Assembly: GCF_030145185.1 (NCBI RefSeq)
Contig: NZ_JAQYWB010000042.1
Span: 1-55,584, forward strand
Direction of reading: 5' to 3'
Source of the DNA: Desulfoluna sp.
Lineage (GTDB): Bacteria; Desulfobacterota; Desulfobacteria; Desulfobacterales; Desulfolunaceae
Length of the DNA: 55,584 bases
In this document: positions 32,475 to 55,584 of the stretch, in pieces
Layout: each line of letters starts with the position of its first letter
How positions within the stretch are numbered: the first letter of the stretch is position 1
The notes under the pieces: model-generated
The model's input: the letters and a program-made list of their open reading frames with translations, nothing else
The model's database searches: none
Told to the model about the DNA's origin: nothing
Position numbers and translations under genes: made by a program

Positions 32475-33219
32475 GGCTGCGATCCATCTCGAAATTTTTC
32501 TCTTTTTCAGACTGGAACACTCGCGACGGGATCGCGGCCTTGCCCCGTTTTTTCACCGACCCCGCATGGTAGAGAAATTCACGGTATTTTTGCAGTCGCT
32601 CAGCGCTCTCCACCCCGAACTCCACCAACCCGAAGTCCAGGGAGAGAAAATCATCTCGGTTTCCCGTCTGCATATGGTGCCCGATGGAGCACCAGCGGTA
32701 GTCCTCAGGCCGCGTCACAATGCCCGCCCTTACGGCATTCAAATCAATATAGGCAAGGCAATTGATAACGGTCTCCCCTTTTTCTACGATCACGCTTTTA
32801 AACCGCTCGCCCCAAAGGGTCCCCCGCCGTTTTTTCTTCCGATTGTAGTGCCGGGAGAAGGTCTGCTTGATGTCCTTGACATACCACGACAAGCTGGAAA
32901 ACCGTTCCCTGAAGGCCTCAAGCTGTCCTTCAGGAAACTCCGACCCTTTTGTCTGAAGAAGCATAAAACGCTGCCGCACCTCCTCATCCGAAAGCATCGC
33001 ACCCGGGCTCACTTCTGCGAGAATGTGGAAATGACTGCCCATCACACTGAAACCCAACACCTCAACGGCATACACCATTGAGAATCGACGGATCACACGG
33101 ACCAGCTCATCTTTTTCAGAATCCTTGAAGGGGAGGCCATCCAGCGCGGTTCGACTGATTACATGATAAACGGTCTTCTGGCCGGGATCTGTCCTGACCA
33201 TCCGGGGAATACGAGGCAT
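32296..33219 (-). CDS. REP-associated tyrosine transposase (RAYT, Y1/HUH family), intact
   Basis: The 307-residue protein belongs to the IS200-like Y1 transposases domesticated as RAYTs. It begins MPRIPRMVRTDPGQKTVYHV, has the HUH metal motif in MGSHFHIL (about residues 61-68), the catalytic Tyr helix KQTFSRHYNRKK, and GTLWGERFKSVIVE followed by YIDLNAVRAGIV. Copies of an 18-bp repeat lie on both sides in opposite orientations, which is the arrangement expected of RAYT with its target sequences. Copies of its ends occur at 42095-42273 and 45373-45516. Confidence 0.85.
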   Translation of the reverse strand: MPRIPRMVRTDPGQKTVYHVISRTALDGLPFKDSEKDELVRVIRRFSMVYAVEVLGFSVMGSHFHILAEVSPGAMLSDEEVRQRFMLLQTKGSEFPEGQLEAFRERFSSLSWYVKDIKQTFSRHYNRKKKRRGTLWGERFKSVIVEKGETVINCLAYIDLNAVRAGIVTRPEDYRWCSIGHHMQTGNRDDFLSLDFGLVEFGVESAERLQKYREFLYHAGSVKKRGKAAIPSRVFQSEKEKNFEMDRSRRFLSRTRYFTDAGIIGSKAFVMGTYEVFKDRLYGSRERVPKHVKGLDGMYSMKRLREA

Positions 33220-33351
33220 AGCGCATCATCTCCTTAAGGTGTCATGTCAGAAATACGGATCTATTAATTAGGCTCTGGAATGATTTTTCTATTAAATTAA
33301 GGCGGGTTACTTTTCAAAAAGGAGTGTCTCACAGATTGATGAAGAGGTCAA

Positions 33352-33603: not shown

Positions 33604-35721
33604 TTACTCTTTAGGCAAAAAAGTCCCTGCAACACCTATAAAACATCCAATGCCACCAACATCCATGCTACCACCGTCAGGTATTACCTGGCTTTCGTCA
33701 CTATTTTTCAGACCGATGCCGGATGTATGGACAATAGTCTTATTTGCTATCCCGTCGAAATCACCACGCCCTCCATCTTCAACCTTGAGTGTGACACATG
33801 TCCCTTTTTCATTAAAAACGATATCTTCCATAGCCTCTAACACCCCTTTTTCAGTAGAATAGCAATACAATTTACTGCCATCAGGCATGGGGATGGAGAA
33901 ATAGATCTCAACCTCGACCTCGCCATTGCTATCTTCAGAAATGCCATCAATCTTAAAAGAAACAAGACCGAAGGGCAAAAATCTGGACTCACTATCATCA
34001 TCAAAGGATTCTGGCTTAATGGCCTGGATAGCCTTAAAAGCAAAACTATATCCAGACTTTATTTTAAAACCTATTTCGGCATTGCCATCATATGTTTTAA
34101 TCACTTTAAATTCGTCCTGCTTCTTATCAGACACACCATTACTGTCTAAATCCGTGTCATACTCCACCTCGTCAAATCCTATGGCCTGAAAATATGGCAT
34201 GGATCCGGGCCATGCCCATTGCGACCATTTTTTTAAGAATGTATTTGAAGAAAAGCCCACTTCAAATCTGGTTTGCCATTCATTGGAATTATAATCGTCA
34301 AAAATGATCATTGGGATTTTAAGTATTGCATGGCCCTTATCCGTATAATTATTAAGAATAATGGGTTTATCACAATTATTCTCATCACATCCTGAATCGT
34401 AAAGTCTCCATTGGGTTCTTAAATGCACAACCCCGTCCCGACTTTCGGGGAAAGGGTCTATTTCAAGCTTCAATATTGAATCTGTGATAGACGATTCGTG
34501 CAGTACAGGAATAGGAATAGGAATAAATGGAGGTGGAGGTGGAGGGATTTTATTAAATTCGTATGCGCCCATATCAATCCTGGCATCACCAATTCTGGGA
34601 TTTCCGGCAAGGTCCTCAAAGCCTGCATCACTCGTTGTTGTATCTGGATTTCCGGTATTAATACATGGTGACGAAGGCAACAGGTTGAAATCACCATTGG
34701 TGGCATCAACAAACTCCGGATTTATATCAAGACATCCTGTTCCAAACCACGCCTGACCAGTTCCGCCTTGCACGCAGCTGAAGGTAACGGAAGGCGTGGC
34801 GTTATCATTGTAAATATGATCCTCACCGGAGGTATCTCCCCAGAAAATACAGTTGGTCAAGACTGTCGAGCTTAAAGAAGTAACCGCCCTGCCACTCATG
34901 CCATCATGACCACCCAAGCCACGATTTCCTGAAAACGTACAATTCATCAGCTTGGGCGAGCAGTATAGACCGTTATACATTCCCCCACCGTATCCGTAAC
35001 TCACAGTATTATCTGAAAATAAGCAGTTAGTCAGAACTGACGATGATGATAATCCACACATTCCACCGCCTCCTTCCAGTGCAGAATTACCCACAAAAAT
35101 GCAGTTGGTCAAAACAGGTGATGATGACACATTATGCATCCCACCTCCTTCAACTGCATAGTTATCCACGAATGTGCAGTTTCTTATAATTGGCGAGGAT
35201 AAAACATTGTACATCCCTCCACCTTCACTACGCACATTGTCTCCATCTGCCTTCCCTCCAGTGACTGTAAACCCATCGAGAACGGCCGTTTCATCTAAAC
35301 TTAGATCACCGGAATGATAGAACACGTGGTAGCAGTTGTCCGTATCATCTCCCTCAGCGCCAATATCCCCACTGAGGACAGTCGCATTAGAAATAAAATC
35401 ACGATTGATGATATTAAACGTTGCGGGATCTTCATCACCCGAAAAACCGCCGTAAATTGACACGCCTTTTGCCATCTGGAAATATTCAGACCGGTCTTCG
35501 ACACCAGGTTTATAGATCCCGGCTGCCACCCATACCTCATCATTGGGTTTCGCCGAGTCAATCGCGGACTGCAAGTCTGTGTAAGCATTCAACCAACTGC
35601 TGCCATTCCCATCTCCTGCTGCGTCATCATTAACATAAACAACGATTCCGGATTCAGCCCATATCTTAAAAGCCAGCAACAGGAAGACGGTGTTGAGCAA
35701 TATAAAGAATGCTTTTTTCAT
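33604..35721 (-). CDS. Secreted beta-helix protein with choice-of-anchor U-like and CFI-box-like end
   Basis: The 705-residue protein has a signal peptide (MKKAFFILLNTVFLLLAFKIWA). A right-handed beta-helix follows (about residues 30-370) with repeated units such as SSPVLTNCIFVGNSA and SSSVLTNCLFSDNTV. After a Pro-rich linker (PPPPPPFIPIPIP), a domain near 510-670 resembles the choice-of-anchor U domain (SGYSFAFKAIQAIKP, LPFGLVSFKI). The tail GGIGCFIGVAGTF is a shortened CFI-box. ATG 35721 is taken because GAGG lies six bases upstream; a second ATG at 35727 is possible. It is probably surface-displayed. The ligand is unknown. Confidence 0.72.
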   Translation of the reverse strand: MKKAFFILLNTVFLLLAFKIWAESGIVVYVNDDAAGDGNGSSWLNAYTDLQSAIDSAKPNDEVWVAAGIYKPGVEDRSEYFQMAKGVSIYGGFSGDEDPATFNIINRDFISNATVLSGDIGAEGDDTDNCYHVFYHSGDLSLDETAVLDGFTVTGGKADGDNVRSEGGGMYNVLSSPIIRNCTFVDNYAVEGGGMHNVSSSPVLTNCIFVGNSALEGGGGMCGLSSSSVLTNCLFSDNTVSYGYGGGMYNGLYCSPKLMNCTFSGNRGLGGHDGMSGRAVTSLSSTVLTNCIFWGDTSGEDHIYNDNATPSVTFSCVQGGTGQAWFGTGCLDINPEFVDATNGDFNLLPSSPCINTGNPDTTTSDAGFEDLAGNPRIGDARIDMGAYEFNKIPPPPPPFIPIPIPVLHESSITDSILKLEIDPFPESRDGVVHLRTQWRLYDSGCDENNCDKPIILNNYTDKGHAILKIPMIIFDDYNSNEWQTRFEVGFSSNTFLKKWSQWAWPGSMPYFQAIGFDEVEYDTDLDSNGVSDKKQDEFKVIKTYDGNAEIGFKIKSGYSFAFKAIQAIKPESFDDDSESRFLPFGLVSFKIDGISEDSNGEVEVEIYFSIPMPDGSKLYCYSTEKGVLEAMEDIVFNEKGTCVTLKVEDGGRGDFDGIANKTIVHTSGIGLKNSDESQVIPDGGSMDVGGIGCFIGVAGTFLPKE

Positions 35722-35760
35722 GTCCATCCTCGATTCTGAAATAAAGACCGACAAACAATA

Positions 35761-35835
35761 CCGCCGGCGGCAAGATGCGCCACCTTGAAAGCGGGTTGCC
35801 GGAGGCATTACCTTTCAAGTGCTGAACAGTTACGA
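35761..35835. repeat. Dispersed repeats between surface-protein genes
   Basis: CGCCGGCGGCAAGATGCGCC with ACCTTGAAAGC, then GCCGGAGGCATTACC and GCTGAACAGTTAC, combine the CAAGGTGG/CCTCCGGCGG unit with the TAACTATTCAGCT end motif. The block fills most of the gap between the porin and beta-helix genes. Confidence 0.5.
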
Positions 35836-35844
35836 ATTAATTTC

Positions 35845-37284
35845 TTAAAAATAACAAATCACCGAGGCATAAAGGGTATGCTCACGAACATCCTGTGAAA
35901 ACCCATACTCCTGTAGTATGGATTCCCCCACATCATCAGCAAATCGATATTGATACGCGACATCAAGGGAAAATCGTTTAAACGTCACTCCCGTTCCTAA
36001 CGTTGCGCCAAAAAAATCATCGGGTTTTCCTTCCGCCGGGGCCGGGTCATAAAAAAAGCCACAACGAAGGGGGATCAGGTATCGTGGCTTAATAAGCAGG
36101 TACTCTGCCCCTGTCCGCACCTGAAGTGTGGGGGCAATGTCCGATTCGTCATAGGGTTTTCCCGTGAGGGGGCATGTTGTTCTGCCTTGGGAATTCTCAA
36201 CCTTGTAATCATCCCACCGGGTCCTGTATAAATCCATGGAAACGGTCAACGCATCCGATGCCCGGTAAGCCAAGCCCATGCCGTAGGACATCGGCATGTG
36301 CAGGGTGCATTCTTCTTCGCTGGATGCCTCATCCTCAAAATCTGCAGGAAAATTCGGCTGGGTGTAATTTAGTTTTGTATAGGACCACTCCCTGTGATTC
36401 AAGTCTGCCCTGAAAGGCGTTTTTAATACCGCACCAAGGGTTAGTTTGCGGCTCACAGACCACAGGAAGCCAAGGTTTGCGTTTAGCCCCTTAAACGAAT
36501 ACCTGCGATGCCTGACCGATTCAAAATCCGCCGTGTACCTGCCAAAATTACCCTGTCCTGTCTCAACAATTGATTTTTCCCAGTGATTTTCCGTCAGGTC
36601 ATCATCCCAAATGTTAAGCGCAAAACCTATGGAAAAATCGGGAGTAATAAGGATACCGCAAGCCAGGCCCAGAGCTGAGAGCCCGCCGTCCTGGGAGTAG
36701 CTTACCTGCTGTTCCTGGTGTATTTCATTCAGCCCCTCAGTCCCCTCTATGGTCATGGGGAAATCCCACGCCCGGGCAAAGTCGTAGAGCCGCTGATAAT
36801 TCAGAGACAAGGTCAGGCTGTACCCCCAAAGTTGCACGGGAGTGGATACACTAAAGTAATTGATACTGGCGTTACTTATCGTCTCCACGCCATTTGCTTC
36901 GGAGTTTTCGCTGAACAGGTTCTCTTCTGCGCGACGGGAACCGGAAACCACCATTGACACTTCGGGTCGTTCAATCTGAATCAACCCGGCCGGATTCCAT
37001 GAGGCGGCAGTAGCGTCATCAGCGACAGCAATGAACGCACCGCCCATGCCCAACGCCCTTGCACCGGAGCCAACCGGATTGAAGGAGCAGGGAATATCTA
37101 TTCGAATGAGGCGGTCTTCGGCGAGGGCAGGTGTCACTATATGGCTGCAGATGACAACCCCCATGACCAGCACGGACAGGGAAAATGGGTGAAGGAAACG
37201 GTTTTTTTTCTCCTTTCTTCCCCTTAAAGCCCAAAGGCCCTTGAGAAAAAACCTGACATCTGAGCACTCTTCCCATAACAACAT
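35845..37284 (-). CDS. FadL/OmpP1-like outer-membrane barrel protein
   Basis: The 479-residue protein has an N-terminal hydrophobic export segment (SLSVLVMGVVICSHIVTPALA). The plug-like hallmark of FadL/PorV-type barrels follows, GARALGMGGAFIAVADDATAASWNPAGL, in two adjacent parts near residues 75-102. The chain ends in Phe (YASVICYF), typical of outer-membrane barrels. ATG 37284 has AGGGG upstream. It starts 11 bp after the stop of the caspase-like gene, so the two form an operon. The transported substrate is unknown, possibly hydrophobic. Confidence 0.75.
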   Translation of the reverse strand: MLLWEECSDVRFFLKGLWALRGRKEKKNRFLHPFSLSVLVMGVVICSHIVTPALAEDRLIRIDIPCSFNPVGSGARALGMGGAFIAVADDATAASWNPAGLIQIERPEVSMVVSGSRRAEENLFSENSEANGVETISNASINYFSVSTPVQLWGYSLTLSLNYQRLYDFARAWDFPMTIEGTEGLNEIHQEQQVSYSQDGGLSALGLACGILITPDFSIGFALNIWDDDLTENHWEKSIVETGQGNFGRYTADFESVRHRRYSFKGLNANLGFLWSVSRKLTLGAVLKTPFRADLNHREWSYTKLNYTQPNFPADFEDEASSEEECTLHMPMSYGMGLAYRASDALTVSMDLYRTRWDDYKVENSQGRTTCPLTGKPYDESDIAPTLQVRTGAEYLLIKPRYLIPLRCGFFYDPAPAEGKPDDFFGATLGTGVTFKRFSLDVAYQYRFADDVGESILQEYGFSQDVREHTLYASVICYF

Positions 37285-37294
37285 CAAGCAACCC

Positions 37295-40200
37295 CTATTT
37301 GGTGATAACCAATTGCCCTGCCCTGAGGCCGCCCGTCACCTCTTCATCACCCATGACCTCTGCATGAGACATTTTGGCAAGAACCTTATTGATGCGAGCG
37401 GTTCCCAATGGGAAGGTATCTACCCCCAGGTACTCCCCTGTTTCCGGGTCCATAACAGGCTCATCTTCTTCAAAAAAGATAAGATGCATTCCCTTCTTCA
37501 CCTTATGATTATCCCCCAGGTTGATGGTAACCCTCTCGCCCTTGACCATAACAACTTTTCCTTCAACGAGAGGCAGATCATATCGAAGTTTGAAAATCAG
37601 CCCCCGGCACATCCTGTCGAGGATCTCCCGGTTGATGCCTTCATCATAGACATCTGCGGCGGATACAATATCGAGGGTTTCCGTTTCAATCAGACGGGCA
37701 CGGATCTCCAGTGAGTTCCCTACGGCCTTTGCTTTGCCAGTAATGAAAAAATCAATCCCCTGAGCCTTTGCAAGGCGGGAAATGTCAACCGGGTCATATT
37801 GGGCTTCCTCAGAAAGACTCCCCTGCCACTGCTTCATATTGAACCGATCGCAATCGAACAGGTGATCGAAAAGCGTACTGTCAAGATCCATATCAAGGTT
37901 CCCGCTGATCTCGAGAGGAAACAGAGCAGCGGACATCCTGGAATTGTCATCATGTACAGTCCTGACTTTGCGATAAATGTGCACCTCTTTCCGAACCCGA
38001 TTGCCGGCAACATCAACGCACTCAATGATAAAGGGATTGTCTCCCTCTTTGAGTTCCGCCAGGTGATTGAAATAGATGGTCTTGCCCGGCACCTTTATAA
38101 CACTCCGACCATTGATCCGAATATCCTCAACGCAACTGTCGTCTGTGACCCGACCTTCCATAAAAATATGATCCAGGAAAACCGTATGATTGTCCTTCCA
38201 GTTTTTTATGGAAATAAGAGGAGACAGGGTATCGGCGCCCCTTTCCCGGAGTTCCCTGTCGGGCGAAACGATAGGCTTTACCACGGCTTGCGCAGCCCCA
38301 CTCTCTTTTTTAAGGCACAAGACATACTCCCCATCCTCATCCATGGGAGTCGTAAACCGCCCCAAAACAGGCCGCTGGCCACCGATCCTGAAAACAGGCT
38401 CCCAGACATAAGAATTGATAATGCTCTTAAGATCGATTACCGGCTCCATGTTCTCTTCAAGCCCTTTGAGAAGATAGTAGGCAAACAGGCTGTGTTTGTC
38501 CCTCCCCCAGTCGGCCACCGGCTCAAGACTGCCAGAAGTAATGATCTGCCTTGATTTCCTGGAAGATAACCGGAGTCGCCTCGACTGAAGAGCCTGCTCC
38601 GAAGAGACCTCGGCCGATCCCCCTCCCCCGCGGGCAAGTTTTCCTCCGTAACAGGAGTCGGCGATCACCACGATATTATTTGCCCGGACCTCTTCAGAGA
38701 CGATCATATTTTTTACAGCTGAATGCGCTATCCACGACCAGACAGCACTCCCCCTCTTCCCTTCCACCGGTATCCAGTAGCCGTCATTGCTGTGCTCGCT
38801 CAATTGCCCGTGACCGGCAAAGTAAACGAGAAGGTTGTCCGAATCACCGAGACCGGAGGTCATCTGCATCAACGCATCGATCAGGGCAGGACGGGTGGCG
38901 CTCTTATCGGTTAGGAGCCGTACGTTTTCATCCTCAAAGGCGTATCGTTCCACCAGAATCTTTTTCAATGCCAGGGCATCGTTTACGGCTGTTTTTAAAG
39001 GGTTCCAGTGCTCATAGGCATCGATCCCGATGATCAGCGCATAATTGGTCCCCGGCCTCACATCCAAGCGGCTGTCCTGGGGTGTGACGGCACCGCCCCG
39101 AGTCACCCGCGAAAGGTGCCGTGCCCCACTCACCTTCGCGGCGTCCCCGACTCCGCCCTCATGTCTATGGGAGTCGGCGTTTGCAAGCAGGCAGAGAGGC
39201 GTATCCAGAGATGCGAGAAGCAGTCCAGGGAAGCTGCCTGCCTTGCCACCGGGCAGGAAGTCCGGCAGAAGGATTTGGGCCGTGGTAATATTCCCGGCCT
39301 GATCTTCGGCGGATATGACAACTTTGACCTCCCCGGGCGCCAGGGTTACCGGACAGTCAAGAACAACTTCCGAAACAGGGACACAGGCGAGGCTCTGACC
39401 GTTCAAAAGAACGTCCCTAATGCCAGAGTCATCCCCCACATATGCATTGATATGATAAGTATTCTCCATAAGATCCGAAGCAACCGGCTCGTATATACTC
39501 AGAATCGGCCCCAAACGGTCACACCGTATGGTTCTTTCAAGCCTCGCTGTTTTGCCGGTCAAATCCCTTACGGCTATCGTGATGATGTTTTCTCCCTGAG
39601 CCAACGACACTTCTGTGCTAAAGGAAACCTCCTGCGCCGAGAGATCGACCTGAACAGGCTTTCCGTTAATCAGTATCTCTTTGACAAAGGTGTCATCGGT
39701 TGCCACGCCTGAGACAAGGATTTTATTTCGATTTACAACATCCCGGTCAGCAGGAGTTCTGCATATGATCTCCGGAAGTTCCATGTCCATTCGGTGGTCT
39801 TCAAGCCATGATTTCCTGGCCTTATCCAAAAAAAACTGGGCCTTTGAGGATGTAACGTGCCCAAGGGACGTTTCCAATTCTTTTATGGACTCTAAAAACC
39901 TCCCTTGGTGAAAAAGGGCGATTCCAAGCTCTCGATGGGAGAAATACTCGATAAAGTGAAGCCCGTAAGTCCGAGAACGAAGTCCGTCCACCTCCCGTTT
40001 CAAGAGGGCCTCCCGGAAGTCTTCTTCCGCTTCTGCCCAGAACCCCCCTTCTGAGTAGGAGAGCCCCCGCTCATAATAGTTCCAGTACCTGTGCCGAAAC
40101 GCACCGCTTGTCACACCGTACCGCTTTCCATCCTTTACGACGGGCTCGCGCTTGCGTGCGATCCGACACGCTGTAAAGATCAGGATGACAAGTAGCCCGA

Positions 40201-40327
40201 GAATAATCAGAATAGATGATTTGCGTATCCTTCGTTCGATAGAAATCCCCCTTTGGCAAAACTCCGACACCGGCGACAAACCGCAACCTATGCGAAGCCA
40301 CACCAACACCATAACAGCAGAATACAA
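37295..40327 (-). CDS. Caspase-fold (peptidase C14) protein with TPR, Ig-like and CsgG/FlgT-like domains
   Basis: The longest reading is 1010 residues. Order of parts: hydrophobic segment with lipobox-like FTAC (about residues 38-54); TPR-like helices (80-165); two Ig-like repeats (about 185-350, VSGVATDDTFVKEILINGKPV); caspase domain (about 425-650) with catalytic His in YFAGHGQ and Cys in IADSCYGG; a third Ig-like repeat (MEGRVTDDSCVEDIRINGRSV); then a CsgG/LpoB-like domain and a FlgT-C-like tail (VTINLGDNHKVKKGMHLIF). The true start is uncertain: 40327 (TTG) lacks a ribosome site, whereas ATC at 40240 follows AGGGGG and would give an ideal lipoprotein signal. It is probably a periplasmic or outer-membrane-anchored protease-like scaffold. 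Confidence 0.78.
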   Translation of the reverse strand: MYSAVMVLVWLRIGCGLSPVSEFCQRGISIERRIRKSSILIILGLLVILIFTACRIARKREPVVKDGKRYGVTSGAFRHRYWNYYERGLSYSEGGFWAEAEEDFREALLKREVDGLRSRTYGLHFIEYFSHRELGIALFHQGRFLESIKELETSLGHVTSSKAQFFLDKARKSWLEDHRMDMELPEIICRTPADRDVVNRNKILVSGVATDDTFVKEILINGKPVQVDLSAQEVSFSTEVSLAQGENIITIAVRDLTGKTARLERTIRCDRLGPILSIYEPVASDLMENTYHINAYVGDDSGIRDVLLNGQSLACVPVSEVVLDCPVTLAPGEVKVVISAEDQAGNITTAQILLPDFLPGGKAGSFPGLLLASLDTPLCLLANADSHRHEGGVGDAAKVSGARHLSRVTRGGAVTPQDSRLDVRPGTNYALIIGIDAYEHWNPLKTAVNDALALKKILVERYAFEDENVRLLTDKSATRPALIDALMQMTSGLGDSDNLLVYFAGHGQLSEHSNDGYWIPVEGKRGSAVWSWIAHSAVKNMIVSEEVRANNIVVIADSCYGGKLARGGGGSAEVSSEQALQSRRLRLSSRKSRQIITSGSLEPVADWGRDKHSLFAYYLLKGLEENMEPVIDLKSIINSYVWEPVFRIGGQRPVLGRFTTPMDEDGEYVLCLKKESGAAQAVVKPIVSPDRELRERGADTLSPLISIKNWKDNHTVFLDHIFMEGRVTDDSCVEDIRINGRSVIKVPGKTIYFNHLAELKEGDNPFIIECVDVAGNRVRKEVHIYRKVRTVHDDNSRMSAALFPLEISGNLDMDLDSTLFDHLFDCDRFNMKQWQGSLSEEAQYDPVDISRLAKAQGIDFFITGKAKAVGNSLEIRARLIETETLDIVSAADVYDEGINREILDRMCRGLIFKLRYDLPLVEGKVVMVKGERVTINLGDNHKVKKGMHLIFFEEDEPVMDPETGEYLGVDTFPLGTARINKVLAKMSHAEVMGDEEVTGGLRAGQLVITK

Positions 40328-41408: not shown

Positions 41409-41818
41409 TGGACTCTCCTTGGGCGTTACCAGGTTTGTCAACAGTCCCTGCGAAGTCGATTAACAGGGTCATCGGGTAGTTTTAGACATGAGCCTATTTA
41501 TTCGCGCATTTTTTTAGAGGCTAATTTTCCAACATTATTGAGGATCAAGACGATCGAATGCACTCACAAATAACTTTCATTAAATCATAAAAATATCTCT
41601 ATATCAACAGCCTGCTAAAGAAGTATTCAACGATCTGACAACGATAAAACAATCGCCCGCCATCTATCGATGCTTGATCAAAGGCCAGACGCCGGGTCAG
41701 AAACTATTTTGGTTGCTCTCAAGACAAATTAAAACCGGAACAGCTGGAAAATTACTTTTCCGAGTTGGTGGAAAGGACAGGGGCCAGGGAGACCAGCGGG
41801 AACAGGGGATAGACTGTT
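41409..41818. other. Intergenic region, no gene seen
   Basis: About 410 bp of A/T-rich DNA between the TPR gene and the duplicated RAYT segment. No repeat, RNA or coding similarity was recognised. Confidence 0.35.
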
Positions 41819-42094
41819 GATGTTGAATTTCATGCCATAATATTTTCTTTTTGCGTCATGCCTGACCAAAAAAAAGCGTTGTAACCCCGGTGGTTCGATC
41901 TGGACCTCATGTGTCATTGTGAGTCGATGCCCGAACAGGCAGATGCAGAAACAGCCCTTCCAGCTGACATGACGGAAGGCAAAACATGAATCGCATGCCC
42001 TCACGACAACAGGTATGGATGCTGATTTCGGTCTGATCGTTTGCAGGTTCTTTCCTTTGCAATGGACTTTATCTGGTGCAATGACAGAAAATCG

Positions 42095-42273
42095 TCAGGC
42101 CTCTCTCAATCGCTTCATGGAATACATCCCATCAAGCCCTTTCACCTGCTTGGGAACCCGTTCCCGGCTTCCATAAAGTCGATCCTTAAAGATTTCGTAG
42201 GCTCCGATAACAAAGGACTTGGAACCGATAATGCCCGAGTCGGTAAAATACCGGGTTCGGGACATGAACCTCC
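42095..42273 (-). pseudogene. 3' fragment of a second RAYT copy
   Basis: This encodes the last 59 or so codons of the 32296-33219 transposase (RTRYFTDSGIIGSKSFVIG...). Similarity stops at 42273, about 40 bp before a copy of the 18-bp repeat (42315-42332, inverted). The matching 5' fragment lies at 45373-45516 on the other strand, with the ATPase and MarR genes in between. Confidence 0.75.
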
Positions 42274-45119: not shown

Positions 45120-45307
45120 AGGGGACAGGCACCATGCACTCGACCTCTACGCCACTCTGTAAGACACTCATTTTCGAAAACTAACCTGCTTTTTTTAAAA
45201 GAAGAATAGAAGACGAGGAAGACGAGGGACAGGCGCCATGCGTTCGACCTCTACGCCAATCCGTGAGACGCTCATTTTTAAAAACTAACCTGCCTTTTTT
45301 AAAAGAA
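45120..45307 (+). repeat. Tandem 104-bp duplication led by the 18-bp repeat
   Basis: Two units (45120-45203 and 45225-45307) each begin with the GGGACAGG-type repeat and continue CGACCTCTACGCCA... to AACCTGC with a T-run and AAAAGAA. The same leader, with the repeat about 150 bp upstream, precedes the intact RAYT at 33219 on the other strand, so it is RAYT 5' flank. Confidence 0.65.
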
Positions 45308-45372
45308 ATTCAGCCTGAAATTACATCAATACTCTCATATTTCTGACATGACACACCAAGGAGATGACGCGT

Positions 45373-45516
45373 ATGCCTCGTATTCCCCGGATGGTCAGGA
45401 CAGATCCCGGCCAGAAAACCGTTTATCATGTAATCAGCCGAACGGCACTTGACGGCCTCCCCTTCAAGGATTCTGAAAAAGACGAGCTGGTTCGTGTGAT
45501 TCGTCGATTTTCAATT
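45373..45516 (+). pseudogene. 5' fragment of RAYT transposase
   Basis: From ATG 45373 (AAGGAG upstream at 45358-45363) the frame encodes the first 48 residues of the intact RAYT (MPRIPRMVRTDPGQKTVYHV ... VRVIRRFS). It then runs straight through a copy of the 18-bp repeat (read as NQGTGTMRS) into IstA sequence. The fusion frame is open to 46566. Confidence 0.75.
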
Positions 45517-45534
45517 AACCAGGGGACAGGCACC

Positions 45535-46566
45535 ATGCGCTCCGGCAAGCATTTTGTTCGCTGCTATCCTTGCGAGCGTCAACAAGCCTTTTTTGACGGG
45601 CATATGCATGCGTTTTCATTTTTTGGTGGGGTGTTCCCCGTTCTGATTTACGACAATCTCACGACAGCTGTTCAAAAAGTCTATCGGGGTAAAAAGCGGG
45701 ATCTTCAAGAGAGTTATGCCCGGTTTGTGGGGTATTACAACTTCATGCCCCGTTTTTGCAATCCCGCCTCAGGCCATGAAAAAGGCGGTGTTGAAGGGCT
45801 GGTTGGATATTCTCGGCGTAACTACATGGTCCCCTTGCCAGATGTTGACTCCCTTGACGAGCTGAACGACAGACTTCTTGAAGCGTGCATGGCCTACGGC
45901 GACCACCGGCAGGCTGGCAAGGAAGAGAGCGTTGACGCCTTCTATGAGGCTGAAAAAAGCAGCCTGTTATCATCCCCCGGTGTCCCGTTCAGTAATGTCG
46001 GGATGTCTGCCCCGAAGATCGACAAGTATGCCACCGCCATCGTCGATAAAAACCGATATTCCGTCCCCACCCGTTATGCCCATGTGAAGGCCAGGGCTCT
46101 GCTTTATGTGGACCGGGTGGAGATATTTTACGGCCAGACGCGCATTGCATCCCACAAACGGTTGTACAACAACAATCAATGGAGCCTTGAACCCGGTCAT
46201 TACCTGGAACTTATCCGTCAAAGGCCCCAGGCGTTCGATACCGCGCGCCCTATACGGCAATGGCGAGAAGCTTGGCCCGATTGCTTTGAAGAGCTGTTGG
46301 AGCGCCTTCGTCATAAGTATGGGCATACGCGAGGCACCCGAGATTTTATCTCTGTTTTGATGCTTTACAAGACATACCCCACTGCCGAGGTTGAAGCCGC
46401 AGTGGCGTTGGCACTCTCCTCGGGTGCTGAGTCGCTTGCCACGGTCGAGTATGCATTGCTTGCTGCCACAAGGCCCCCGGAAAAACAGGCCGATTCTGTT
46501 GCGGGTTGGCCCACCCTTCCTCCTGCGGATATAGCCATTTACCAGCAGCTGGGAGGTGTCCAGTGA
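45535..46566 (+). pseudogene. istA: IS21-family transposase IstA, N-terminally truncated
   Basis: The frame carries the second half of the DDE integrase core: Asp in FPVLIYDNLTTAV and Glu in EKGGVEGLVGYSRRN. The IstA C-terminal domain follows (KIDKYATAIVDKNRYSVPTRYA). The N-terminal DNA-binding part and first catalytic Asp are missing, so it cannot be active. The in-frame ATG at 45535 belongs to the 18-bp repeat, whose AGGGGA provides a ribosome site. Overlap GTGA links it to istB. Confidence 0.82.
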
Positions 46567-47345
46567 ATACAGCAGCCATGCATGCCATATTGATTGAGAA
46601 TTTGAAGCAGCTCAAACTCTCTTCCATGACGAAAAACATCGAAAGTGAACTGAGACAAGCCCGGGAAAACGGCATCTCTTATGAAGAATTTTTACTGAAC
46701 CTGAGCGAGCTTGAAATCCATCACCGAAGAGAAAATGGCCGAAAAAGGCGGGTCAAGGAAGCCATGTTCCCCCTCTTCAAGCCCCTTGAGACATTTGATT
46801 TTACGGCTTCTCCGCAACTTGACCGACGGCTTGTCAGAGAGCTCGCTACCGGTGAATATCTGAAAGAGAAGCGGAATATTATCTTCATGGGAAAGAGCGG
46901 CACAGGCAAGACGCACCTGGCTACGGCCCTGGGCATAGAAGCATGTACAGAAGGCCATCGCACGCGTTTTGTAACGGGTTGTGGCCTTGCCAATGAGCTG
47001 ATTGAAGCCGGCGATAAAAAGGGGCTTACCCGCATGTTGAAGCGGTATGCGGGGTACGGGCTTCTGGTTGTAGATGAGCTGGGTTACGTGCCGTTCTCAA
47101 AAGAGGGCGGTGAGTTGCTCTTCCAGGTGCTTGCAGAACGCCATGAGAAAAGGTCTGTCATTATTACCACAAACCTTGGGTTTGGTGACTGGACACAGGT
47201 CTTCGGAGACCCGAATCTTACAGCTGCGCTGTTGGATCGTCTCACACACAAAGCCCATGTGATCCATTGCAATTGGGACAGCTATCGACTCAAAGAGACT
47301 CTGAAAGGACAAGCAAGGGTGACACATGGAACTAACAGTTTATAA
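46563..47345 (+). CDS. istB: IS21-family ATPase IstB
   Basis: The 260-residue AAA+ transposition helper has Walker A GKSGTGKTHLA (about residues 103-113), Walker B LLVVDELGYV (about 162-171) and the sensor region VIITTNLGFGDW. The GTG at 46563 overlaps the istA stop (GTGA), as is usual in IS21. It appears intact though its partner is truncated. The family normally regulates target choice for IstA. Confidence 0.9.
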   Translation: MNTAAMHAILIENLKQLKLSSMTKNIESELRQARENGISYEEFLLNLSELEIHHRRENGRKRRVKEAMFPLFKPLETFDFTASPQLDRRLVRELATGEYLKEKRNIIFMGKSGTGKTHLATALGIEACTEGHRTRFVTGCGLANELIEAGDKKGLTRMLKRYAGYGLLVVDELGYVPFSKEGGELLFQVLAERHEKRSVIITTNLGFGDWTQVFGDPNLTAALLDRLTHKAHVIHCNWDSYRLKETLKGQARVTHGTNSL

Positions 47346-48485: not shown

Positions 48486-48634
48486 GGATTTGAACCCTCT
48501 ACTTATGCCTCCGGCGGTCTTGCTGGGGGCTAAATTTTTGCCTGATTTCATAAAGACGGGTTTGACAATGACATCCGCAACCTACTTTCAAGGTGGCCCA
48601 CCTTGCCGCCGGAGGCTTTTTGGAGAGCTGAATA
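48486..48634. repeat. Dispersed repeat cluster just upstream of the NRPS
   Basis: This holds ATGCCTCCGGCGGTCTTGCTGG (48505 on), a CAAGGTGGCCCACCTTG hairpin with CCGCCGGAGGC (48586-48616) and the AGCTGAATAGTTAC end motif (about 48627). No promoter of good quality could be recognised between here and the NRPS start. Confidence 0.5.
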
Positions 48635-48674: not shown

Positions 48675-49949
48675 ATGAATACATTTGTTGAAACAAAGGA
48701 AGCCAGAACGAGTCTTGATTATTTCACATCAATTTTTCATGGACTTGAAACCGACTCAAACCCGATTTATGATACCCCGGAAAATATCATAAAAAGTACC
48801 CCCTCCGTCGAATCTCACCTTATTGCTTTGCCAGGGACGCGGACTCCTCCATCCATTAAAAATTTTCTGATGGAAAAAAGCTTAACTGAGAGCACCTTCT
48901 TTCTGGGTGTTTTTTCATATGTTCTTGCCAAATTTACCGGCCAGAACGAAAGTGTTTTCTGCATACATACCAAAAATACGACGCACCGAATCTTGCCGAT
49001 TTATATTAAAATCGATGAAACCCAGCTGATTTCAGAATACCTTGATACCGTTCATAAAAATTATTTAGAGACCATTCACCACACTGCCTGTCCTTTTGAA
49101 ACACTGGCAGAAAAACTCGGTATCAAATCGGATATCCAGTTCAATTACGGGTCGGATTCGAACGCTTTGATTCCAAGCTCAGATCCAATCCTCTCCGTTT
49201 TTATTTTTTCAGAACCAGACGGCTACCAAATCACACTCCACTACCGGGGTGATTTATATAGAAAAGAGACGATCCAGCGTTTTTCTGCTCTTTTTGAAAA
49301 AACGGTTTCAAGCTTTTTAAACACTGCCAAGTTATCCGAGCTGACACTGATTTCCGATGAGGACCGGCGTCTTTGTCAAGGGTTCAATCAGACAGAGGTT
49401 CCCTATGACACCTCTTTGACCCTGGTTGATCTCCTGGGCAACCAGATGAAGAAAACCCCGGACAATATTGCTTTGGTTTATAAGGATGTCCGGATTAGTT
49501 ACAAAGAACTGGATGAGGTCACCGAACGGCTGGCCAAACACATTAAAAGTTTTGGCATCGGCCGAAAGAATGTCGTGGCCATCCTTCTCCCGAAATCCCA
49601 GTATATGACCATTGCCGCCATTGCTGTTTTAAAAGCGGGAGCGGCCTATCAGCCACTGGACCCCAGCTACCCCATGGATCGTCTTAAATTTATGGTTCAG
49701 GATGCCGACGCAACGCTTTTGATTGCCGACGAATCCATGATTCCTTTGTTGCCGGACTATCATGGACCCATTGTTTTAACCAAAGATATTGATGGCATAA
49801 AAGATTCAGACCGGATACTTGATGATCCAAAACCGGAAGATCTTACTCGTCGTGCTCTACACCTCCGGCTCCACCGGGGTCCCCAAAGGGGTGATGCTGT
49901 CGCATCAAAATATTGTTGCCATGTGCCGGTGGTTCCCCCGCTATTATAA
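48675..49949 (+). CDS. NRPS, 5' part: condensation C-lobe and start of adenylation domain 1
   Basis: Residues 1-230 match only the C-terminal lobe of a condensation domain (ESTFFLGVFSYVLAKFTGQNES lines up with LNAFFVGVFGYVLGRYNHKDHS in module 2). The N-lobe and HHxxxDG are absent. Adenylation core A1-A2 follow (YKELDEVTERLAKHI, LKAGAAYQPLDPSYPMDRL). The frame breaks near 49841-49854, just before core A3: one extra base leads into nonsense ending at 49949, while the true sequence continues in the next frame. ATG 48675 has only a weak ribosome site. Either a real frameshift or a sequencing error. Confidence 0.8.
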   Translation: MNTFVETKEARTSLDYFTSIFHGLETDSNPIYDTPENIIKSTPSVESHLIALPGTRTPPSIKNFLMEKSLTESTFFLGVFSYVLAKFTGQNESVFCIHTKNTTHRILPIYIKIDETQLISEYLDTVHKNYLETIHHTACPFETLAEKLGIKSDIQFNYGSDSNALIPSSDPILSVFIFSEPDGYQITLHYRGDLYRKETIQRFSALFEKTVSSFLNTAKLSELTLISDEDRRLCQGFNQTEVPYDTSLTLVDLLGNQMKKTPDNIALVYKDVRISYKELDEVTERLAKHIKSFGIGRKNVVAILLPKSQYMTIAAIAVLKAGAAYQPLDPSYPMDRLKFMVQDADATLLIADESMIPLLPDYHGPIVLTKDIDGIKDSDRILDDPKPEDLTRRALHLRLHRGPQRGDAVASKYCCHVPVVPPLL

Positions 49950-52900
49950 TCTTGATGAAACAGCCAGAGTATCTGCCTACGCCAGTTTCGGTTTTGATGC
50001 CAGTCTGATGGACATCTATCCGGCCTTAACCGTTGGGGCCTGTGCTTATATCATCGAAGACGAGATCCGTCTTGATCTGATCAAACTGAACGACTATTTT
50101 AAAGGCAATCAGATTACCCATGCCTTTATGACCACCCAGGTGGCCCGACAATTTGTGGTAAATATCGAAAATCATTCCCTGAAACATTTGTTAACCGGGG
50201 GTGAAAAGCTTCCTACCCTTACCCCGCCGAGGTATCCACTCCATAACATTTACGGCCCCACCGAAACCACCGTCCTGGTTACTGCCTTTCCCGTGGATGC
50301 CGAATACCCAAACATTCCTCTGGGTAAGGCCATTGACAATGTGAAGCTTTATGTGCTGGATGAATTTGAACGTCAGGTTCCCATCGGTGTCCCAGGAGAG
50401 CTTTGTATTGCAGGGATACAGGTCTCGTGTGGCTATCTCAACCAACCGGAAAAAACCAAGGCGGTCTTCACCCCCAACCCCTATGCCCTGGAAAAACCTT
50501 ATGACCGAATGTATCATACCGGGGATATTGTTCGGTATCTGACCGACGGCAATATTGAATTTATAGGCCGCCGGGATGCCCAGGTGAAAATCAGAGGTTT
50601 CCGCATTGAACTTACGGAAGTGGAGGAGGTGATCCGCCACTTTGAAGGCATTCAGGATGCCACAGTTGTCGCCTATGACAATGCCGGCGGCGGCAAGTAT
50701 ATTGCCGCTTATATTGTGGCCGATGCCCCCATCGACATGGATGCGCTCAATGGGTTTATAGAGTCCCGAAAGCCCTCCTATATGATTCCTGCGGTCACCT
50801 TGCAAATTGACAAGATCCCGCTGAATCAGAACATGAAGGTCAATAAAAAAGAACTGCCGGTTCCTGTAAGGAAAACTGAAAACATCGTTAAGCCTGAAAA
50901 CAAAATCCAGCAGAAAATATTTGATTGTGTTGCCAAAGCGCTGGGCCATGATGAATTCGGCATTCATACCGATTTTCAGGATGCCGGTCTGACCTCCATC
51001 GGAATCGTCTCCTTGAATGTGCTTTTGTCAAATACATTCGGCGTTGCTGTCAAAACCCGGGATTTGACAGTATGCAATACCATTGTCCGGCTGGAAGCCT
51101 TTCTCGCCACTGCAGATCCATTGTCCACCATGGAGGCCATGGAAAAACAGGAGGCTTATCCGGTTTCTGAAACCCAGATGGGACTGTTTGTCGAGTCCAT
51201 GGCCAAGCCCGAATCGCTGCGATATAATTTGCCGATGCTGTTTAAGCTCCATCCGGATGTGGACCTGGATAAATTGAAAACCGCCATTGAAGCAACCCTC
51301 GAGGCCCACCCTTACATTAAAACCCGATTTTTCATGGACGGGCATGATGAAATCATGCAGCGACGACAAGATGATGACCCTTTTGTCGTGAAAATCCTGA
51401 ACACCCTGGACATAGAGACACTTGTCACCCCTTTTAAACTTATTGAAGGGCAGCTGTTCGACCTCTCTCTTTACGATACCAAAGAAGGCAGCTTCTTTTT
51501 TATGGATCTTCATCATATGATCTGTGACGGAACCTCCATTGCCATTCTTATTGAGGATATCAACCGGGCTTATGCCGGTGAAAAACCTGAACCTGAAATC
51601 TATACGGGGTTTGAAGCAGCCCTTGACGAAAAAAAAACCCGGGCCTCGGAGGTTTACACCCAGGCCAAAGCCTATTACGCCTCGATTTTTAAAGGCTGTG
51701 ACACCCATTTTCTCCTGGCACCGGATAAAAAAGATGACCCAGCCCCCAGCCTGGGAGAAATAGCGCATATTCCATTGGATCTTGACCTTGAATCGGTGAA
51801 CGCGTTTTGCCATCAAAAGAAAATTACATTGAATGCTTTTTTTGTGGGTGTATTCGGGTATGTCCTTGGGCGATACAACCATAAGGATCATAGTGTATTC
51901 ACCACCATCTATAACGGAAGAAATGATTCGAGAATCGCCCGATCCGCCGGAATGTATGTAAAAACCCTGCCGATTTATTGTCATCTTACGACCACCGTTC
52001 CCGGACTGCTGGCCACCACCAAGGAACAGCTTATGAACGGGATGGATCATGATATCTATTCATTTGCAGAAATCAGCCGTGCCTTTGGCATCACTCCCGA
52101 TATCATCTTTGCTTATCAGGGCGATAATTTTGAATTTGAGAGCATTGGCAATCTTCCTGCGGAAAACATCCAGGTGATGACCGACGGTGCCATTGCGCCG
52201 ATCTCTGTGATCATGTCTATCCAGGGTGGAAAATTTCATTTGATGGCATCTTTTCGACGCGACATGTATGACGACAGAACCATGGATGCCCTTCTGAAAA
52301 ACTACGTCCTGGCGGCCAGACAAATGCTCTTTTGTGATGATCTGTCCCAAATTCGGCTTCTTTTTGATGAAGAAAATAAAATGGTCGATGATCCCCGTTT
52401 CTACGGACAAACCTTTGTGGATCTTTTCGCCAAATCGGCCCAACAATATCCGGATCATATTGCCGTCAAGGATATAAATGGCGTCATCACATATCAGGAG
52501 CTGGATTCGGCTTCCGATGCGCTGGCCCTCAGCCTCCTTTCCCAGGGCCTGCAGGCACAAGATTTTGTCGGGGTGCTTTCCGGAAGATCACGGGAATTTA
52601 TCATCGGGGTGACGGCTGTGATGAAGGCCGGAGGGGCCTATGTTCCCCTTGATCCGGAATACCCCCAGGACCGCCTTCGATACATGCTTGAAGATTCCGG
52701 CGCAAAGATTCTTCTTTCCGTAAGCGATCATAAAGATCTTACCCGTTTTTATAAGCAAAAAACCATTCTGCTGGACCTGCTTCCAGCAGCGAAAACTTGT
52801 TTACCGGATAAATCCTGGATGACCGCCAGGCCCTTACCGGAAAATCTGGCCTATATGATTTATACCTCCGGTTCCACCGGAAAGCCCAAAGGGGTTATGA

Positions 52901-55353
52901 TCAGCCACGGTAATCTCTCAAACCTGATTTTTAACGAAACCCTCCATAATAAACTGGATGCAACCACACAATGTGCCGAGTATTCCAGCTTTTGTTTTGA
53001 CGCATCGGTCATTGGAATTTTCCCCGCTCTTGCCAATGGGTGTTCCCTTTATTTATTTGCTGAAGAGGACCGGAAAGATGCGGCAAGGGTGTGTGACATT
53101 CTCAAAGAAGAAGCCATCAATGTTGTCGTCTTCCCGACCCAGATGGGGGAGATTATTGTTGAGAATCTAAGGGAGGACTGCGATCTGACCTATATTATGC
53201 TGGGCGGAGAAAAACTTAAACGCTATTACGACCGGCCTTATACCCTAATCAATGGATACGGCCCCACCGAAAGCACTGTTGAGACCACGACGTTTAATGT
53301 GGATCACGAATACAAAAATATCCCCATTGGGAAATCATTGATCAATGTACGCTCCTACGTGGTGGACGAGCACCTGAATCCGGTGCCTGTGGGCTCTCCA
53401 GGAGAACTTTGCCATGCAGGACGACAGATTGCCCGGGGGTATCACAATCTGAAAGAAAAAACCGAATCGGTATTTGTACCCAACCCCTTCTCCGTCTGCA
53501 AGGATGACAGAATTCTCTACCGCACCGGTGACATGGTTCTCCGGCACGGTGACGGAAACCTCGAATATTCCGGCAGAATCGATTCCCAGGTAAAAATCAG
53601 GGGATACCGCATTGAACTGGGTGAGATTGAAGGGGCCATGAGTGCGTATCCCCCTGTTGGGCAAACAACGGTAACCGTCGAAGAAAACAGTGGGAACAAA
53701 TATATTGTCGGTTACTACACCTGCGATGCCGGTGAAATCGATCCTAAAATCTGGAACAGGGTGTTACAGCCCCTGCTGCCGGAATATATGATGCCAAGCG
53801 TTTATGTGCATCTGGATAACATGCGAATCACCCCCGGGGGCAAAATCGATAAAAAAGCATTGCCCAAACCCGAAATCAATTTAAACACCCCTGATTATGC
53901 GCCACCGGAAACAACATTGCAGCAAACCCTATGCAGCATATTTGGAATGGTGCTGGGGATGGAAACGGTCGGAATCAATGATGACTTTTTTGCCGTTGGC
54001 GGCACCTCCATTTCTGCGGCCAAAGTGGCCATGAAATGCATCACCCAGAAAATTTCCATCACCTATTCCGATATCTTCGAACACAAAACGGTCAGAAAAC
54101 TGGCAGAATTTGTAGAGTCCGATATGGCGGAAGCCATGACCACAAACGACGTGATCAAAAACTTTAACTACGAACGTATCACGCCCATGCTTGCAAAAAA
54201 TACGGTGACGCATCTTCCAGAACTCCAGTGCAATGCCCTGGAAGATATTATTATTACCGGTGCCAACGGATTTCTGGGAATCCATATTCTCAAAGAATTT
54301 CTCGATCATTATGAAGGAAGAGTGACCTGTTTTATCCGGAAAGGACGGTTGGACTCTGTTGAAGAACGCATGAAAACCATGCTGTTTTACTATTTCGATC
54401 AGGATTTTGGTCCACTTTTCGGCAAACGAATTTTCTGTGTCGAAGGCGATATCACCGACGTTCAAAGCGTGATGGCTCTAAAATCTATTTCGGCAAAGAC
54501 ACTGATCAATTGTGCTGCCTGCGTCAAACATTTTGTAGCCGACGATTCACTTGAAAAAATTAATGTAACCGGGGTTAAAAATCTCATTACCCTTTGCAAA
54601 AAAACCGATAAACAATTGATCCAGATTTCTACGGTGAGTGTAGGGGGGGATGGGAAAAACAATACCCCTCCTGTTGAGAAGCGGATCATGGAGAATGAGC
54701 TTTTTTTCGGACAAGACTTGGAAAATGCCTATATCCACTCCAAGTTTTTGGCAGAGCGGGCCGTGGTGTCAGCCATTGCCCAAGACGGACTCAACGCAAA
54801 AATCATGCGGGTTGGCAACCTGATGAGCCGACACAGTGACGGAGAATTCCAGATCAATTTCCTGACAAACGGGTTTATGCGCAGCCTGAAAGGATATAAA
54901 TATCTCGGCAAATTCCCGGTAAGTGCCATGAATAGTTCGGTTGAGTTTTCACCCATTGATGTCACAGCCGATGCCATTTTAAAACTGTCTGAAACCAATC
55001 GGGAGTTTACGGTTTTTCATCCTTATAACAATCACGCCATATTTATGGCAGATGTGATTTTGCAAATGAAGGCCTATGGATTTGATATCAAAATCGTCAG
55101 AGATGAAGAATTTGCCATGGACATGAAAGCGGGGATGGAAAATCCGGAAATATCCCAGGCCATTTCCGGATTGATTGTCTACCTTTCAAATGATGCGATC
55201 AATACGGTTTATCCCATTGGTCCCGACAATAGATTCACCACTGAAGTGCTGTATCGGATCAATCATAGCTGGCCCATGACCAGTGAAACCTATTTGCACA
55301 AATCCTTAAAGGCTTTGGATGAACTCGGATTTTTTGGCATTGAAGAGTTTTGA
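49819..55353 (+). CDS. NRPS, main part: A1-T1-C2-A2-T2-thioester reductase
   Basis: 1844 residues. A1 remainder (about 1-360): A3 YTSGSTGVPKGVMLSH, A5 NIYGPTETT, A7 YHTGD. T1 (about 365-435), Ser in DAGLTSIGI. C2 (about 450-860), active site HHMICDG. A2 (about 870-1360): YTSGSTGKPKGVMISH, NGYGPTEST, YRTGD, final Lys in GGKIDKKALP. T2 (about 1370-1440), Ser in GGTSISA. Terminal NAD(P)H reductase (about 1470-1844): TGANGFLG, ISTVSVGG and YIHSKFLAE. The enzyme joins two amino acids and releases the peptide reductively as aldehyde or alcohol. Hand-read specificity codes: A1 D-A-M-F-L-G-I-V-L-K (Leu-like), A2 D-A-I-V-M-G-G-V-E-K (hydrophobic, unclear). No PPTase or tailoring gene is in the window. 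Confidence 0.92.
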   Translation: MMIQNRKILLVVLYTSGSTGVPKGVMLSHQNIVAMCRWFPRYYNLDETARVSAYASFGFDASLMDIYPALTVGACAYIIEDEIRLDLIKLNDYFKGNQITHAFMTTQVARQFVVNIENHSLKHLLTGGEKLPTLTPPRYPLHNIYGPTETTVLVTAFPVDAEYPNIPLGKAIDNVKLYVLDEFERQVPIGVPGELCIAGIQVSCGYLNQPEKTKAVFTPNPYALEKPYDRMYHTGDIVRYLTDGNIEFIGRRDAQVKIRGFRIELTEVEEVIRHFEGIQDATVVAYDNAGGGKYIAAYIVADAPIDMDALNGFIESRKPSYMIPAVTLQIDKIPLNQNMKVNKKELPVPVRKTENIVKPENKIQQKIFDCVAKALGHDEFGIHTDFQDAGLTSIGIVSLNVLLSNTFGVAVKTRDLTVCNTIVRLEAFLATADPLSTMEAMEKQEAYPVSETQMGLFVESMAKPESLRYNLPMLFKLHPDVDLDKLKTAIEATLEAHPYIKTRFFMDGHDEIMQRRQDDDPFVVKILNTLDIETLVTPFKLIEGQLFDLSLYDTKEGSFFFMDLHHMICDGTSIAILIEDINRAYAGEKPEPEIYTGFEAALDEKKTRASEVYTQAKAYYASIFKGCDTHFLLAPDKKDDPAPSLGEIAHIPLDLDLESVNAFCHQKKITLNAFFVGVFGYVLGRYNHKDHSVFTTIYNGRNDSRIARSAGMYVKTLPIYCHLTTTVPGLLATTKEQLMNGMDHDIYSFAEISRAFGITPDIIFAYQGDNFEFESIGNLPAENIQVMTDGAIAPISVIMSIQGGKFHLMASFRRDMYDDRTMDALLKNYVLAARQMLFCDDLSQIRLLFDEENKMVDDPRFYGQTFVDLFAKSAQQYPDHIAVKDINGVITYQELDSASDALALSLLSQGLQAQDFVGVLSGRSREFIIGVTAVMKAGGAYVPLDPEYPQDRLRYMLEDSGAKILLSVSDHKDLTRFYKQKTILLDLLPAAKTCLPDKSWMTARPLPENLAYMIYTSGSTGKPKGVMISHGNLSNLIFNETLHNKLDATTQCAEYSSFCFDASVIGIFPALANGCSLYLFAEEDRKDAARVCDILKEEAINVVVFPTQMGEIIVENLREDCDLTYIMLGGEKLKRYYDRPYTLINGYGPTESTVETTTFNVDHEYKNIPIGKSLINVRSYVVDEHLNPVPVGSPGELCHAGRQIARGYHNLKEKTESVFVPNPFSVCKDDRILYRTGDMVLRHGDGNLEYSGRIDSQVKIRGYRIELGEIEGAMSAYPPVGQTTVTVEENSGNKYIVGYYTCDAGEIDPKIWNRVLQPLLPEYMMPSVYVHLDNMRITPGGKIDKKALPKPEINLNTPDYAPPETTLQQTLCSIFGMVLGMETVGINDDFFAVGGTSISAAKVAMKCITQKISITYSDIFEHKTVRKLAEFVESDMAEAMTTNDVIKNFNYERITPMLAKNTVTHLPELQCNALEDIIITGANGFLGIHILKEFLDHYEGRVTCFIRKGRLDSVEERMKTMLFYYFDQDFGPLFGKRIFCVEGDITDVQSVMALKSISAKTLINCAACVKHFVADDSLEKINVTGVKNLITLCKKTDKQLIQISTVSVGGDGKNNTPPVEKRIMENELFFGQDLENAYIHSKFLAERAVVSAIAQDGLNAKIMRVGNLMSRHSDGEFQINFLTNGFMRSLKGYKYLGKFPVSAMNSSVEFSPIDVTADAILKLSETNREFTVFHPYNNHAIFMADVILQMKAYGFDIKIVRDEEFAMDMKAGMENPEISQAISGLIVYLSNDAINTVYPIGPDNRFTTEVLYRINHSWPMTSETYLHKSLKALDELGFFGIEEF

Positions 55354-55584
55354 GTAATTAGTCAGCTCATGCCTCCGGTGGCCCTGCCGGGGGCTAAACT
55401 TTTAAAAAGTTTAATAAACAGGTCTTAAAAAGTGTCTTTAAACCTGAAAATGGGATAAAGCGCACACCTTAAGCCAAAAAACCACTCTCATTTGCGTTAT
55501 TCAATTGAAAAATCAAGCTTTTTTCCCTTGCTTTTTGAGGTGTATGCATTGTATAATACGTACACTTTAAAGGGGGTTATATTC
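55354..55584. repeat. 3' flank of the NRPS with dispersed repeat
   Basis: ATGCCTCCGGTGGCCCTGCCGG followed by GGGCTAAACTTTTAAAAAGTTTAA (about 55368-55413) is the inverse of the unit at 9300-9356 and contains a small hairpin. The last bases include TATAAT and AAAGGGGG, hinting that another gene starts beyond the edge. Confidence 0.45.

Follow-up and report, generated by a model that had tools for sequence, protein, structure and literature searches.

The window, that is, the whole stretch of DNA that was analyzed, is an entire contig of 55,584 bases that ends 231 nt 3′ of the stop codon of an NRPS locus (48675–55353), hiding its downstream neighbourhood. Pfam profiles gave the domain order half-C, A1, T1, C2, A2, T2, and reductase (R), spread over two reading frames. 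The features of the locus and its flanks are as follows.

45364..47345, + strand: mobile-element debris upstream, an ORF that opens like a Y1 transposase and continues as the C-terminal portion of IS21 IstA, followed by IstB
48507..48534, + strand: copy of a REP-like, genome-wide repeat upstream of the NRPS
48675..49949, + strand: ORF1, 424 aa, encoding the half-C and the beginning of A1 in a frame other than that of ORF2
48675..49379, + strand: half-C, the C-lobe alone of a condensation domain, lacking HHxxxDG and shortened in two stretches
49425..49841, + strand: N-terminal part of A1, in the frame of ORF1, AMP-binding positions 3–109 of 384
49819..49855, + strand: frame-change stretch, a single frame change directly 5′ of the A1 core motif
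49819..55353, + strand: ORF2, 1844 aa, from the A1 core motif through the reductase
49843..50853, + strand: A1 from the core motif to its end, code DAMFLGIVL by hand mapping
50911..51105, + strand: T1 carrier domain, PP-binding (Pfam)
51145..52308, + strand: C2 condensation domain with HHMICDG (E 5.3e-52, Pfam)
52411..53853, + strand: A2 adenylation domain, hand-mapped code DAIVMGGVE, no substrate assigned
53893..54114, + strand: T2 carrier domain (Pfam, carrier-serine motif)
54136..55350, + strand: R, thioester reductase with NAD(P) motif TGANGFLG, STVS, and YIHSK
55371..55398, + strand: copy of the same REP-like, genome-wide repeat just 3′ of the NRPS stop

As listed, 48675–55353 was not one open frame. 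ORF1 stopped at 49949, ORF2 was open from 49819, and the frame changed once, in a short stretch before the YTSGSTG motif of A1. The copy as sequenced would not yield a whole enzyme, because its frame is broken inside A1. The half-C-A-T-C-A-T-reductase order read in the original prediction was borne out by Pfam and motifs, but it lies in two frames rather than one, and the intact single gene assumed there was not found; the one continuous frame of a C-A-T-C-A-T-R dipeptide-aldehyde NRPS was likewise absent. By Pfam, ORF1 matched Condensation positions 239–453 of 456, an incomplete first C domain without HHxxxDG, plus the first part of AMP-binding. ORF2 matched the remainder of A1, PP-binding, a near-complete Condensation (1–427 of 456), a full AMP-binding, a second PP-binding, and NAD_binding_4. 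The ORF2 signal is far beyond chance, with 1844 codons without a stop and 768 bits against a solved NRPS. Both C-domain matches in the host's own genome belonged to this NRPS.

A pattern search in ORF2 found two A3, two YGPTE, and two TGD motifs, two carrier serines, HHMICDG, TGANGFLG, STVS, and YIHSK; the A10 pattern matched A1 alone, and its equivalent in A2, TPGGKIDKKALP, was found by eye. Read across the two frames, the locus contained two A-T pairs with a catalytic-motif C between them and a C-terminal reductase with an NAD(P) motif and Thr/Ser-Tyr-Lys. The reductase Tyr/Lys and the A-domain residues, which the original prediction had singled out for checking, were present at motif level, and the two-module reductive release proposed there agrees with this reductase and its motifs. 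The locus is a two-module NRPS that starts with a half-C and ends in a reductase; it is an ordinary relative of known enzymes, is split in this assembly, and may not work here.

The closest relatives found were NRPSs of Lachnospiraceae-type Clostridia, at 52–54% identity over ORF2, which upholds the closeness to gut Firmicutes NRPSs that had been expected. Identity over 1833 columns was 52.8% with L025 and 51.8% with L026, both named Lachnospiraceae MAGs; it was 53.8% with L129, 53.4% with L130, and 53% with the genomes of L157 and L158. ORF2 was collinear with modules 2–3 of the Lachnospiraceae NRPSs. In an IQ-TREE tree (19 rows, midpoint root, three long branches flagged, L160 left out), the window was sister to six trimodular Lachnospiraceae-type NRPSs with 100/100 support. 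These six (L025, L026, L129, L130, L157, and L158) share the collinear A1-T1-C2-A2-T2-R with the window, but they are each in one frame, begin with an additional A-T module, and have a complete C. When T2-R of the window, together with PDB 6vtj, was used as a query against named genome contigs, three Lachnospiraceae MAG loci (51–52%) were followed by Chryseobacterium (39%) and a Clostridia MAG (33%) among the best 80 matches.

Matches at E ≤ 1e-200 were found in 20 of the 397 genomes of the family sample around L025, centre included, with identities of 29–59%, a threshold that also takes in distant NRPSs. The order sample around G403 gave 13/392, some genomes being common to both samples. The gene was present in one of the eight genomes of the genus of G120, the genus of the best match. 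At the same threshold, the host's class yielded its own genome only out of 389, with none in the 388 others sampled. Genus-mates carried other NRPS-type matches at about 27–37%. A plasmid collection returned only matches below 60% identity (about 26–31% in the rows listed).

Since the relatives lie in Lachnospiraceae-type Clostridia and none reached the threshold in the 388 other genomes of the host's class, the NRPS was likely acquired horizontally. Its composition is no proof of transfer: the GC content of ORF2, 46.9% against 52.5% for the window, falls inside the range of the other window genes measured (43.9–60.9%). A donor among these Clostridia is putative, because the window is sister to the Lachnospiraceae clade rather than nested in it, the tree is midpoint-rooted with flagged long branches, and the gene is in only one of eight genomes of the genus of the best match. 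With this locus, the gut NRPS family of protease-inhibitor type reaches, apparently by horizontal transfer, a host whose class otherwise yielded no member in the sample searched.

The relatives differed in how their first module begins. Three modules with A first were found at ten loci (L025, L026, L129, L130, L132, L134, L135, L137, L157, and L158), a full-length C came first at seven (L027, L028, L133, L136, L139, L153, and L155), and a half-C came first at two, namely L161 (= L110, L131; one 2237-aa ORF) and L160 (= L121, L141; cut by a contig end), both from the family sample around a Lachnospiraceae MAG. Left out of these counts were L156 (C-first, no reductase pattern), L138 (A-first, two modules), and L142 (one module), as well as partial loci (L024, L120, L140, L146, L154, and the shorter cuts L143–L145 and L147–L152) and other types (L159 and L162). 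The reductase pattern missed L139 and L155, both of which were kept in the tree by alignment. L161 matches the window in plan, with half-C-A-T-C-A-T-R and with the C-lobe start and two shortened stretches that L160 also has; it differs in lying on another branch of the tree, in its A2 code, and in being one ORF.

The half-C lacks the HHxxxDG half of a condensation domain. In a multiple alignment, all three half-Cs (window, L161, and L160) shared one start point immediately ahead of the C-lobe, and two stretches were shortened in all three vs none of ten full-length C rows. In that alignment the window half-C was 16–17% identical to the other two half-Cs and 21–33% to the ten full-length C rows, so its conservation is weak. 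Pairwise, it was 29% identical to the matching part of L026 and 23% to that of L025, compared with 66% for the same half between L025 and L026. Elsewhere, the window was 48–63% identical to these two in A1 (52% to L026 and 48% to L025 in its N-terminal part), about 43% in C2, 55–58% in A2, and 52–53% in R. An AlphaFold model of the half-C (pLDDT 79.8, pTM 0.81) matched C domains by Foldseek (best E 6.4e-14), and VIA-align superposed it on TomBC residues 264–525 (Z 23.5, rmsd 3.1, 215 aligned). Assuming that the entry keeps the numbering of its paper, this aligned part starts after the HHxxxD motif at 222–227. The predicted fold of the half-C is that of a C-domain C-lobe.

The floor loop (beta 8–9) and the latch loop (beta 10–11) are described as crossover elements from the C-lobe to the N-lobe (PMC11186497). 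The two shortened stretches fit these two loops. In the half-C model, a tight hairpin and a short loop appear to stand at the matching places when strands are counted from beta 7. There is precedent for truncated starter C domains: ThdA of the thermoactinoamide synthetase carries an N-terminal truncated C before its first A, described as "probably inactive", and its authors considered that the truncated C may tune the following A domain (PMC7253712). A "truncated" C is also mentioned in PMC6737921 and PMC3705289. The window shows a comparable arrangement, an N-terminal C reduced to the C-lobe ahead of the first A, by comparison with the description of ThdA, whose product is a cyclohexapeptide and whose cut position is not stated in the account given of it (PMC7253712). 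Given the missing HHxxxDG, the half-C is likely inactive, with A1 starting the chain. As two Clostridia relatives share both its start point and its shortened stretches, it is probably more than local damage, and the window and these two relatives give three comparable starter C domains that are cut down to a single lobe.

Because the window and L161 stand apart in the tree, two separate losses of the N-lobe are suggested; the half-C sequences are too diverged to serve as a test of this. We tentatively propose, as a possibility rather than an expectation, that the N-lobe was lost at least twice in this reductase-terminated NRPS family, that the C-lobe left behind in each case shed its floor and latch loops and stayed on, in no catalytic role, to support the first A or act as its gatekeeper, and that this offers a natural route from longer or N-acylating reductase-terminated lines to synthetases of free-amine dipeptide aldehydes (pyrazinones). 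If the half-C were confirmed as a non-catalytic support, it would point to a natural site at which NRPS starter modules could be cut in engineering work.

For substrate specificity, the hand-mapped A1 code DAMFLGIVL agrees at 6/9 positions with DAWFLGNVV, the code given for Leu (PMC7253712), and weakly suggests a Leu-like residue, as had been read earlier by hand. All specificity codes were hand-mapped only, and position 278 was misplaced in at least the third A domain of L025. Known systems serve as the guide to the product. Gut C-A-T-C-A-T-R NRPSs are reported to make dipeptide aldehydes that are detected as pyrazinones (Guo 2017, as cited in PMC10979478 and PMC12327764), and AusA is reported to give aureusimines through the same release (PMC12153313). 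The gut enzymes were compared by their published description. The published plan that the original prediction had invoked fits the window in its two modules and terminal reductase, but not in its first C, which is present in the gut enzymes and reduced here to the C-lobe; the window gene is in addition split.

AusA of staphylococci (A-T-C-A-T-R, aureusimines) likewise has two modules and R, and the NCBIfam AusA model (NF047350) matched along ORF2. The scores, with the ORFs scanned apart, were 977 bits for ORF2 and 104.7 for ORF1, below the curated cut-off of 2500 bits. The window R scored 160 bits against AusA vs 345 bits against 6vtj, and is far less AusA-like. The latter structure covers just the PCP-R didomain of an NRPS, and T2-R of the window is 41% identical to it over its full length. 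We take 6vtj to be the archaeal didomain of Deshpande 2021, and the carrier-reductase pair of the window is, by sequence, also close to an archaeal one. Methanobrevibacter ruminantium mru0068 is similar in having two C-A-T modules, by description; a thioester reductase domain is shown according to a figure legend, the main text names a thioesterase as its last domain, and its neighbours are reported to include a MatE exporter and serine phosphatases (PMC2812497).

In the proposed mechanism, the half-C, having no active site, would give A1 nothing but structural support, and A1 would place a residue, probably Leu-like, on T1 with no condensation step before it. C2 would join the A1 residue to the A2 residue on T2. 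R with NAD(P)H would then release a free-amine dipeptide aldehyde, which would cyclise spontaneously to a dihydropyrazinone and oxidise to a pyrazinone. Since a first domain without an N-lobe should not condense, A1 would start the chain and the product would keep a free amine able to cyclise. By analogy with the known enzymes, a free-amine dipeptide aldehyde cyclising to a pyrazinone is most likely the product of an intact enzyme. We consider it fairly probable that the locus is a borrowed, reductase-terminated NRPS of the gut-Clostridia family that, with its C-lobe starter, would make such an aldehyde and pyrazinone when intact.

Partner genes are suggested by the relatives. In L025 and L026, a MATE-type ORF precedes the NRPS and a PPTase-like ORF follows it (by eye); in L161, a MATE-HATPase (Pfam) and a phosphatase-like ORF (by eye) lie beside it. 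The idea of a self-contained pathway was not sustained, since all three relatives have the MATE-type ORF adjoining and two of them the PPTase-like ORF. The accompanying claim that no tailoring genes lie nearby found no support, as the contig ends just past the gene. The exporter itself is an odd exporter-regulator fusion, a MATE exporter joined to a C-terminal HATPase (L025 698–2446, L026 625–2478, L161 1409–3163; Pfam for L161 only, the others by eye). In the genome of the window, a search for a MATE-HATPase partner gave weak partial matches only (best E 4.1e-6).

Two readings of the frame change are nearly even. In one, to which we give an even chance, a true mutation shifted the frame and left a recent pseudogene among abundant mobile debris. 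Between the flanking residues that relatives share, the frame-change site contains no base run longer than two and is no homopolymer, which also speaks against the second reading, an intact gene with a sequencing or assembly error, whose probability we place a little short of even. A pseudogene would also agree with the broken IS21 and transposase pieces upstream, the lack of a clear MATE-HATPase partner in the genome, and the lower GC of the half-C coding part (40.6%). Against it, no further stop interrupts the frame in roughly 2,225 codons, and the catalytic motifs that were tested survive; for this reason any inactivation would be recent or only apparent. An error is in line with the frame changing just once in 6.7 kb that are open elsewhere, with the same kept motifs, and with one PPTase-family gene (239 aa) elsewhere in the genome. 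Among columns invariant in 14 relatives, the window broke 11/216 and L161, an equal end branch, 3/208, with 0–16 in the relatives, so mild extra change in the window copy is possible. It would be unusual for an enzyme to be split within its A core, and a programmed frameshift or two separate polypeptides forming a working enzyme is very improbable; the frames do overlap, and potential starts for ORF2 exist 5′ of the core motif, but the relatives whose long frames were read across the site (L025, L026, L129, L130, L157, L158, L160, and L161) keep one frame.

The half-C might instead be what the adjoining mobile elements left of a trimodular A-T-C-A-T-C-A-T-R gene after truncating it locally at the 5′ end. 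The nearest relatives do have three modules, with collinearity setting in partway through the C domain of the second, and the mobile debris does lie upstream. Simple 5′ damage of this kind was downgraded once L161 and L160 showed the same start, and we regard it as unlikely: L161 is an unbroken 2237-aa ORF with its MATE-HATPase adjoining, the stretches fitting the crossover loops are shortened in all three half-Cs, and a search upstream of the half-C for remnants of the missing module returned noise only (best E 0.27). For the product, R domains of this fold are capable of aldehyde or alcohol release, and the contig end hides possible partner genes for product modification. A four-electron reduction to the alcohol, or another modification of the product, is nevertheless quite improbable, as the known C-A-T-C-A-T-R and AusA relatives are reported to give pyrazinones via aldehydes. 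A free-amine dipeptide aldehyde released by R from a half-C starter enzyme remains the preferred reading.

Around the NRPS, cadA was common to all five other genomes of the genus (73–84% DNA identity), and the NRPS was absent beside cadA in the two genus stretches fetched; an empty site is not demonstrable, as the other flank lies past the end of the window contig. The repeats at 48502–48554 and 55366–55418 were considered as ends of an inserted element and rejected, since their REP-like core occurs at 188 genome places (93 forward and 95 reverse, ≤3 mismatches), with 0 in a backwards control. This repeat, GCCTCCGG...GGGGGCTAAA, has a further window copy at 9326–9353, and similar stretches occur in the two same-genus stretches fetched. 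The ORF at 45364–46566 is chimeric: its first ~150 nt match the start of a Y1-transposase ORF (33077–33229) and many genome places, and the remainder is the C-terminal part of an IS21 transposase.

Further upstream, the − strand encodes at 37295–40327 a protein of 1010 aa in which a caspase domain (Peptidase_C14) and a match to Glucodextran_B were found; next on that strand come a FadL-type outer membrane protein (35845–37287) and then a protein with a weak beta-helix match (33604–35808). A stretch of ~475 nt at 41799–42273 recurs, in all or part, at 71–91% identity at 27 other listed genome places. Finally, 45122–45307 contains two 82-nt direct repeats that are 88% identical and 104 nt apart, start to start.
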